Positions 61,670 to 62,819 of a stretch of DNA of 64,000 bases are shown here, one piece after another; the first letter of the stretch is position 1; the number at the start of each line of letters is the position of its first letter. This stretch comes from an uncultured Dehalococcoidia bacterium (lineage in GTDB: Bacteria > Chloroflexota > Dehalococcoidia > Lucifugimonadales > UBA1127): the NCBI GenBank assembly GCA_951812285.1, contig OX638292.1, forward strand, positions 864,774 through 928,773, given 5' to 3'. Position numbers and translations under genes: made by a program. The notes beneath the pieces are model-generated. The model had not been told where the DNA came from. It was given only the letters and a program-made list of their open reading frames with translations, and ran no database searches.

Positions 61670-61915
61670 CTATTCCGCCCCAGCTGCTGCGAGCGCCTCA
61701 TCTATCTTGTCGGTGCTGTAACCGGCGATCCACTCACTGCCAATGACCGTGACCGGCGTGGTCCGAAAACCGTTCTCAATGAGGGTATCCCTCGCTTCAC
61801 GGTCCTCAGAGACGTTGCGCTCCGTAAAGGAAATGCCCTTTTGTGAAAGGTACACTTTCACCATGTGGCATGGGCCTCAGCCTGCTGATGTAAACACCTG
61901 GATGTTTGTCTCCAT
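61670..61915 (-). CDS. Glutaredoxin-like selenoprotein (UGPC active site)
   Basis: The start is ATG 61915, 8 bases after a perfect AGGAGG. The 81-aa product reads METNIQVFTSAG-U-GPCHMVKVYL, with an in-frame UGA at 61877-61879 (residue 13) exactly where the nucleophilic Cys of the CxxC motif is expected. Downstream, GFRTTPVTVIGSEWIAGYST is the cis-Pro thioredoxin-fold region of NrdH/glutaredoxins, and the total length is normal. A hairpin GTGAAAG-TGTAC-CTTTCAC begins 15 bases after the UGA. Without Sec insertion only a 12-residue peptide, or an internal start that lacks the active site, would result. Second selenoprotein of the operon, 15 bases after the FTR stop. Confidence 0.88.
61843..61879 (-). 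promoter_or_regulatory. UGA-Sec codon with bacterial SECIS-like hairpin, glutaredoxin
   Basis: UGA 61877-61879, 15-nt spacer, 7-bp perfect stem, loop UGUAC with G second. This fits the spacing and the loop-G rule of bacterial SECIS elements. Confidence 0.75.
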
Positions 61916-61930
61916 GGACGTTTCCTCCTG

Positions 61931-62365
61931 CTAACCTTCCCGGCCTCTTTCTTGCCGTCGCTTCTCGTTGAACTCGCGCTTGCCTCCGGTCTCTTCGAAG
62001 AGCTCCTGACCCTGGGGCACGGCCTCGTCTATGGTTTGAACGGCCTTTTCACCTTCCAGATACTTGCGAAGAAACTCTTCGCTTACGAAGAACATTCATA
62101 TACAGAAACCGTCGCGCTCGATGTCCTCATGATGTCGTTCGCAGGGGCAGATTTTCTTGCGATCCTCTACGGGATCGCCACTGAGGGGCATTCAGGGGCA
62201 GTAGCGATAACCGTGAACGCGCTCGTTTTCCGCCAAGCCCTGCTGTACGAGCTCAACTACCTCTCGCTCGGGGAAAAGCTCATAGGGCCCTCGCGCGACG
62301 TAGCGTTCCGAGAACTTGACGGCGCGCTCCATCGCCTCCTCAGGAGTCATTTCCCTCTTCGCCAT
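61931..62365 (-). CDS. Ferredoxin:thioredoxin reductase catalytic subunit with two selenocysteines
   Basis: The start is ATG 62365 (MAKREMTPEEAMERAVKFSE) after AGGGG, 8 bases after the upstream stop. The frame continues through UGA at 62192-62194 (residue 58) and UGA at 62096-62098 (residue 90) to TAG 61931, giving 144 aa. The FTR motif CPC-N14-CPC-N12-CxC reads CPU-N14-CPC-N12-CIU. Ligands of the [4Fe-4S] cluster (Cys56, Cys73, Cys75, Cys88) are intact. The two Sec residues are exactly the redox-active pair (Cys57 and Cys87 of the plant enzyme). GYRYCP, SGDPVEDRKKICPCERHHEDI and MFFVSEEF match bacterial FTR. It should pass electrons from ferredoxin to a thioredoxin-fold partner, probably the next gene. 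Confidence 0.9.
62066..62098 (-). promoter_or_regulatory. Second UGA-Sec codon of FTR with SECIS-like hairpin
   Basis: UGA, 13-nt spacer, stem GCGAAG/CTTCGC, loop AGUUU with G second. Confidence 0.72.
62159..62194 (-). promoter_or_regulatory. First UGA-Sec codon of FTR with SECIS-like hairpin
   Basis: UGA, 13-nt spacer, perfect 7-bp stem GCGATCC/GGATCGC, loop CGUAGA with G second. Confidence 0.75.
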
Positions 62366-62373
62366 GTTAGCCC

Positions 62374-62718
62374 CTATACCCGGCTCGAAGCAGGCCCCAA
62401 GCGCATCTGCAGGTGCAGATCGCACGGCATGCTTTCGAATTGTCGTTGTTGCTGCACAAGGCGGTCAACCAGTGAAGGCAGCGCCTCCCGGATTTCGGGT
62501 ATAGTCTTTTCTTTCGAGACCTCAACGCTGAGGAGGGCGCTGGTGCCGCAAGAGCACCGGTCGGCGAAGAAGACCTTCCTGAAGCCTGGATTGGCGGAGA
62601 GATTCAGCTTGAAGCCCGGCAAAGGCGTGAGGTTCGTGTCCAGTGGCAACGCGTCGCAGATGAGAGCCCTGATGCGCTGCGTCACCTCGGCCTCTTCCGC
62701 ATCCTTGGACATAGGCAT
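62374..62718 (-). CDS. Hypothetical protein upstream of the selenoprotein FTR (114 aa)
   Basis: The start is ATG 62718 (MPMSKDAEEAEVTQRIRALI), or ATG 62712, after GGAG; the longer open frame runs into tRNA-Glu and is not used. 114 aa. It contains KVFFADRCSCGTSALLSVEV with a CxC pair and a helical C-terminus with LVQQQRQFESMP. No family is recognised. It ends 8 bases before the FTR start and begins only 24 bases after the tRNA-Glu 3' end, so it is probably cotranscribed with both. A role in the same redox relay is inferred only from position. Confidence 0.7.
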   Translation of the reverse strand: MPMSKDAEEAEVTQRIRALICDALPLDTNLTPLPGFKLNLSANPGFRKVFFADRCSCGTSALLSVEVSKEKTIPEIREALPSLVDRLVQQQRQFESMPCDLHLQMRLGPASSRV

Positions 62719-62742: not shown

Positions 62743-62819
62743 TGGTGGCGCATACGGGATTCGAACCCGTGGTCTCCGCCTTGAGAGGGCGGTGTCCTTG
62801 GCCGCTAGACGAATGCGCC
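62743..62819 (-). tRNA. tRNA-Glu (anticodon CUC)
   Basis: Acceptor stem GGCGCAT/ATGCGCC, D-arm with TCTAGCGGCCAAGGA, anticodon stem CCGCC/GGCGG with loop CTCTCAA (CTC), T-arm ACGGG-TTCGAAT-CCCGT, discriminator A and an encoded CCA. All stems pair. Confidence 0.97.

Follow-up and report, generated by a model that had tools for sequence, protein, structure and literature searches.

Does an FTR with UGA at both of its redox-active positions contain two selenocysteines, and, if so, which partner does it serve? These questions are raised by a locus in a window (the whole stretch of DNA that was analysed, 64,000 nucleotides) from the genome of an uncultured Dehalococcoidia bacterium (2.86 Mb, one contig, 94% complete). 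A preliminary description had reported here an FTR catalytic subunit in a single frame with CPU and CIU motifs, without giving its strand.

An FTR gene with UGA at both redox positions

The coding strand is the minus strand (Table 1), on which the frame described earlier is indeed continuous apart from two internal stops, TGA at codons 58 and 90. The residues around them read YRYCPUMPLSGD...KKICPCERHHEDIERDGFCIUMFF (translation, U = UGA). The Pfam family FeThRed_B (PF02943) matches the protein with an E-value of 4.7e-21 and 75.2 bits against a curated cut-off of 22, and the NCBIfam family NF041072 (FtrB_double_U), named 'FtrB family double-selenoprotein', with 9.2e-67 and 222.3 bits against a cut-off of 160. 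With a score above this cut-off and two in-frame UGA codons, the FTR is, judged by its sequence, a member of the known double-selenocysteine FTR family.

Counting columns in the HMMER alignment to 1dj7 places U58 at residue 57 and U90 at residue 87, which we take to be the redox pair; C56, C73, C75 and C88 fall on residues 55, 74, 76 and 85, presumably the four cluster ligands. The earlier placement of the UGA codons at the active-site pair, with the four cluster cysteines kept, was therefore correct. We modeled the FTR with AlphaFold2 (mean pLDDT 78.6, pTM 0.68). A Foldseek search of the PDB with this model returned FTR/FDR chains exclusively at ranks 1-13, the best match being 7pwe (E-value 4.2e-07, TM-score 0.58 by query).

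Table 1. Positions in the window of the genes, UGA codons and predicted hairpins of the FTR locus
Feature	Position	Strand	Evidence or remark
Uncharacterised 113-aa protein, start codon predicted	62374..62715	minus	Conserved in 61/82 loci
FTR catalytic chain, 144 aa, predicted Sec58 and Sec90	61931..62365	minus	Frame, Pfam, NCBIfam, 1dj7 alignment
UGA codon 58 of FTR, Cys57 position of 1dj7	62192..62194	minus	Frame and alignment
Predicted SECIS hairpin 1, 7-bp stem, 6-nt loop	62159..62178	minus	13 nt after UGA 58; fold z -1.53
UGA codon 90 of FTR, Cys87 position of 1dj7	62096..62098	minus	Frame and alignment
Predicted SECIS hairpin 2, 7-bp stem, 3-nt loop	62066..62082	minus	13 nt after UGA 90; fold z -1.46
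Glutaredoxin-like protein, 81 aa, UGPC motif, predicted Sec13	61670..61915	minus	Pfam Glutaredoxin, 2.8e-15
UGA codon 13 of glutaredoxin	61877..61879	minus	TGC at this place in relative G011
Predicted SECIS hairpin 3, 7-bp stem, 5-nt loop	61843..61861	minus	15 nt after glutaredoxin UGA; fold z -1.58

Decoding of the UGA codons

All the selenocysteine genes sought were found in the genome: selA (541 bits), selB (312.5 bits, or 344.8 bits together with a neighbour in frame), selD (380 bits) and a tRNA-Sec with a TCA anticodon (72.9 bits). The selD gene (G000:C1:821296-822213, minus strand, L131) contains one in-frame TGA, which predicts that selenophosphate synthetase is a selenoprotein too. Among the 22 genomes with this FTR, selA scores above its cut-off in 19; the other three, drafts of 81-91% completeness, have a partial match (G001), a weak one (G059) or none (G039).

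We searched 98 genomes with NF041072. The model matched 29 of them at an E-value of 0.001 or less, and 21 reached the cut-off; all 21 full-length matches, the window's own included, have two in-frame TGA codons. A 22nd FTR genome (G068), whose gene is split by assembly gaps, was counted in the phylogenetic profile and kept outside the 21 full loci. A separate scan of named genomes, using peptide patterns that leave out the UGA places, yielded 62 loci, all from records titled Chloroflexota, Chloroflexi, Dehalococcoidia, SAR202 or Anaerolineales; the two sets overlap in species. One of these loci (L105) is cut by N and was omitted from the codon counts. Of the 61 scorable loci, 58 have TGA at both places, and the remaining three (L106-L108) have TGA followed by TGC or TGT. 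The protein around the UGA codons is nearly invariant among relatives, and FTR homologues have Cys at both positions, as the preliminary description had expected. Two single truncated database proteins, P0013 (CPC, ending at the second site) and P0014 (CPS), were left out. The natural states of the redox pair are C/C, U/C and U/U, with C/U as a possible fourth. The candidate for this mirror state is a distant FTR (L045) with Cys at the first place and TGA at the second (CHU); found in one genome and followed by no more than a short hairpin, it is a lead only.

A SECIS hairpin just 3' of the UGA codon, as expected of a bacterial selenoprotein gene, is predicted at both FTR sites and in the glutaredoxin gene described below, each with GU in its loop and a z-score that is modest taken singly (about -1.5, single-sequence folding). 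After removal of exact duplicates and sequences with N, 58, 54 and 42 distinct sequences remained for sites 1, 2 and 3, respectively. Under the stem of site 2, GAG and CTT are frozen in 54/54 sequences each, and at site 3 GTG (42/42), CTT (41/42) and TCA (42/42) are similarly fixed, whereas most codons neighbouring the stems vary. The mean normalised synonymous entropy inside versus outside the hairpins is 0.43 versus 0.83, 0.21 versus 0.94 and 0.19 versus 0.72 for sites 1 to 3 (column permutation p of 0.007, 0.005 and 0.006, for sequences that are related). Site 1 is the weakest: codons of its loop vary, and an A-C mismatch (GAC for GAT) is present in some stems. In a geometric scan, a stem score of at least 6.5 occurred at 32 of the 42 FTR UGA sites as against 226 of 3221 other codons. 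The Cys-type glutaredoxin of G011 proved not to be a clean control for hairpin loss: the conserved codons are absent, but another hairpin folds there.

Taken together, the sel genes, the two UGA codons kept in 21 of 21 full-length matches and the hairpins with their frozen synonymous codons strongly support reading UGA 58 and 90 as selenocysteine, a proposal of the preliminary description to which the Cys homologues also lend weight. A reading of UGA as tryptophan, or as some amino acid other than selenocysteine, seems very improbable. Nine database proteins (P0004-P0012) do have W at both places, probably because gene callers read TGA as Trp; the complete set of sel genes, the homologues with Cys rather than Trp and the SECIS-like constraint speak against such a reading. 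Moreover, among 34 long ORFs without overlap in the window, of which some are surely spurious, 7 terminate in TGA, which makes wholesale reassignment of the code unlikely, as previously argued. Ordinary ORF finding breaks the FTR gene apart, as it would a pseudogene or a gene with sequencing errors at the two codons. This explanation, to which we give hardly any weight, is in effect refuted by the same codons in 21 genomes and 58 named loci (overlapping sets), where the frame stays open and shows no decay.

The genome also encodes a tRNA with a CUA anticodon and a long variable arm (G000:C1:1882742-1882826, minus strand, L002), which would read UAG; ARAGORN calls it tRNA-Pyl, and it scores 50.9 bits on the tRNA-Sec model. 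We considered amber recoding and rejected it: among the 98 genomes this tRNA was matched only in its own, and the TAG of the G011 glutaredoxin gene, whose CGPC site is normal, is that gene's own stop.

Neighbouring genes and their co-occurrence with FTR

Just downstream of FTR, a third in-frame UGA, absent from the preliminary description, lies in a gene for a glutaredoxin-like protein that begins with METNIQVFTSAGUGPC, 15 nt after the FTR stop. The protein scores 56.7 bits on Glutaredoxin (PF00462; cut-off 22.9) and stays below the cut-offs of the NrdH redoxin (TIGR02194; 58.5 against 85.75 bits) and YruB (TIGR02196; 70.1 against 88.55 bits) families. A UGPC glutaredoxin directly follows FTR in 21/21 full loci; in the genome scan, the same holds for 42 of the 58 loci with two UGA codons. 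Close TGA-bearing glutaredoxins (hits below an E-value of 1e-24) are present in exactly the 22 FTR genomes among the 98 searched. The next match is the Cys orthologue of G011 with its CGPC site, and weaker hits, some with TGA, extend to other genomes (39/98 with any hit at 1e-5). More distantly related domains of the glutaredoxin type, in which an in-frame TGA occupies the active-site position, also occur at L111-L114, L116 and L117 and in frames of about 255-340 aa, some of the long frames suggesting fusions.

The gene upstream of FTR ends 8 nt before it. No Pfam or NCBIfam family scored above its cut-off for the encoded protein, and no Pfam domain was seen among the 120 matches listed of its 170 database relatives. 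In this protein, C54xC56 and C98xxH101 are invariant. The structural model is confident (pLDDT 92.4) and shows a helix, a beta hairpin and two helices; compared with the PDB, it gave no solid structural match. In a search with a profile of the protein, the gene was found in 21 of the 22 FTR genomes (not in G002, and on another contig in G003) and in 0 of the 76 others. We see in the protein a probable target or accessory dedicated to the FTR chain, the least certain step of our proposal.

With intergenic gaps of 8 and 15 nt, the three genes likely form an operon. A tRNA-Glu gene (anticodon CTC, window 62743-62819, minus strand) is located directly upstream on the same strand. Fisher tests of FTR against the glutaredoxin and against the upstream gene gave p of about 2e-22 and 2e-20, uncorrected for kinship; the 22 genomes carry 11 family labels.

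The association has exceptions. In 16 of the 58 double-UGA loci (L068, L069, L087, L088, L091, L093-L103), the glutaredoxin is not directly downstream. Two of these genomes have a close UGPC glutaredoxin elsewhere (G098 and G099; at L069 it lies on the opposite strand of the locus itself), four have only distant TGA-bearing hits, and ten gave no glutaredoxin match at an E-value of 0.001; the glutaredoxin is thus not an obligate partner of FTR. Since the upstream protein was found in only L068 and L069 of the 16, the loci divide into a group with all three genes and 14 sister loci in which FTR has neither neighbour. Conversely, L026/L079 and L035/L080 keep the glutaredoxin and lack the upstream gene at the locus.

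Links between FTR and glutaredoxins also occur outside this arrangement. At L106-L108, where the redox pair of FTR is U followed by Cys, a glutaredoxin domain with a single Cys and no Sec is encoded in the same frame; both Pfam domains score above their cut-offs in all three. A glutaredoxin/ferredoxin disulfide reductase fusion has also been solved as a structure (7pwe), and at L043 a Cys-FTR gene adjoins a glutaredoxin-like gene. Coupling of FTR to a glutaredoxin thus extends beyond the Sec form.

A search of the genome for FtrA (PF02941) returned no match, while the control was found in Synechococcus, and we therefore do not class this FTR as the plant-type heterodimer. The accessible part of one source describes the FtrA subunit as exclusive to oxygenic phototrophs and the catalytic family as not needing it (PMC9025218). 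We also considered FTR as a replacement of thioredoxin reductase and discarded the idea, because the genome has a trxB match above the cut-off (353.1 bits) for a standard thioredoxin reductase; a relay through FTR would be an addition.

A proposed selenium relay and its relation to known systems

We propose, with a probability of roughly 70%, that the likely operon encodes a relay in which electrons pass from ferredoxin to the double-Sec FTR and on to the UGPC Sec-glutaredoxin. The glutaredoxin is our candidate partner because of its adjacency, its identical phylogenetic profile and the natural fusions. Weighing against the relay are the double-UGA loci where no glutaredoxin adjoins FTR, the three genomes short of a full selA match, the modest single-sequence z-scores, the fused glutaredoxin domains with one Cys, the thioredoxin genes beside some Cys-FTRs and the standard thioredoxin reductase. 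FTR works by a two-step mechanism. Reduced ferredoxin would load the predicted [4Fe-4S] cluster with one electron per step. Sec58, at the Cys57 position, may then attack the oxidised glutaredoxin, the product being a mixed bond of the Se-Se or Se-S type; in the meantime the cluster would hold Sec90, at the Cys87 position. The second electron would free the reduced glutaredoxin, whose Sec13-Cys16 pair could reduce further targets. A more elaborate version is an all-selenium chain, in which a diselenide FTR with a selenolate-ligated [4Fe-4S] intermediate and the Sec-glutaredoxin would serve the undescribed CxC...CxxH protein; as a whole we hold it only tentatively and lean slightly against it. 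As the preliminary description proposed, a diselenide might make the reduction faster or lower its potential.

Alternatively, the double-Sec FTR may mainly reduce ordinary thioredoxins, with the Sec-glutaredoxin co-transcribed and working elsewhere. Plant and cyanobacterial FTR reduces thioredoxins, all-Cys FTRs have been solved in complexes with thioredoxins as substrates, within the same taxonomic order a gene for a WCGPC thioredoxin comes after the all-Cys FTR gene at L041, L042 and L044, and the 14 sister loci have a double-Sec FTR with neither neighbour. We nevertheless regard this alternative as unlikely, given that FTR and the Sec-glutaredoxin occur in the same 22 genomes, adjacent in 21/21 loci, and that FTR-glutaredoxin fusions exist. 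A further role, less probable still, would make FTR a ferredoxin disulfide reductase in a broad sense, with some other disulfide, selenide or metalloid as its substrate; one candidate is the upstream CxC...CxxH protein itself. The upstream gene shares the FTR profile, the structures that best match the FTR model belong to ferredoxin disulfide reductases and FtrA had no match in the genome, all of which would fit; such a role, however, leaves the constant Sec-glutaredoxin neighbour and the fusions unexplained.

For the proposed ferredoxin-FTR-glutaredoxin relay, three predicted selenocysteines in a row beside an iron-sulfur cluster would raise the question of why selenium serves a whole electron relay. 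An extra cluster ligand is a presumed part of FTR chemistry, and the relay would ask whether selenium can act as one. The C/C, U/C and U/U states, and possibly C/U, would allow the roles of the two FTR cysteines to be separated, and the upstream protein represents a small family, absent from Pfam and without a clear match in fold, that offers a testable target.

The double-Sec FTR itself is already known, since in addition to NF041072 the accessible part of a 2008 report describes two FTR selenoprotein sequences, one of them a GOS read with predicted Sec at both redox-active Cys (PMC2398784). As far as partial texts show, FTR is among the selenoproteins listed in one source (PMC9312934), and another (PMC13188914) lists it with NF041072, CxU and 2 Sec, lists Sec-glutaredoxins and names other operons. 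We found no description of the FTR and Sec-glutaredoxin pair in the literature searched, from which some likely sources were out of reach. As far as this literature shows, the novelty is the three-gene module rather than the double-Sec FTR alone.

The window FTR shares with the NF041072 and GOS proteins the family and two predicted Sec at the two redox Cys; it differs in its complete genome with sel genes, its candidate Sec-glutaredoxin partner, third gene and phylogenetic profile, whereas the accessible part of the GOS report mentions no partner (PMC2398784). A sequence family previously without a partner in the searched literature thus has a Sec-glutaredoxin indicated. The plant and cyanobacterial FTRs (1dj7, 2pu9 and 7bzk) share the fold and all six Cys/Sec positions; they are heterodimers with FtrA that reduce thioredoxin, as far as the accessible text states (PMC9025218), whereas the window's genome gave no FtrA match. 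The protein of 7pwe, from Desulfotalea psychrophila, couples an FTR domain with a glutaredoxin like the window pair, but as one fused protein with Cys at the aligned FTR places, where the window has two genes and three predicted Sec. With the selenoprotein glutaredoxins, the window glutaredoxin has UxxC and the glutaredoxin family in common; it scores below the YruB, NrdH and Uxx_star cut-offs and, unlike the known UxxC glutaredoxins, appears to be coupled to FTR.
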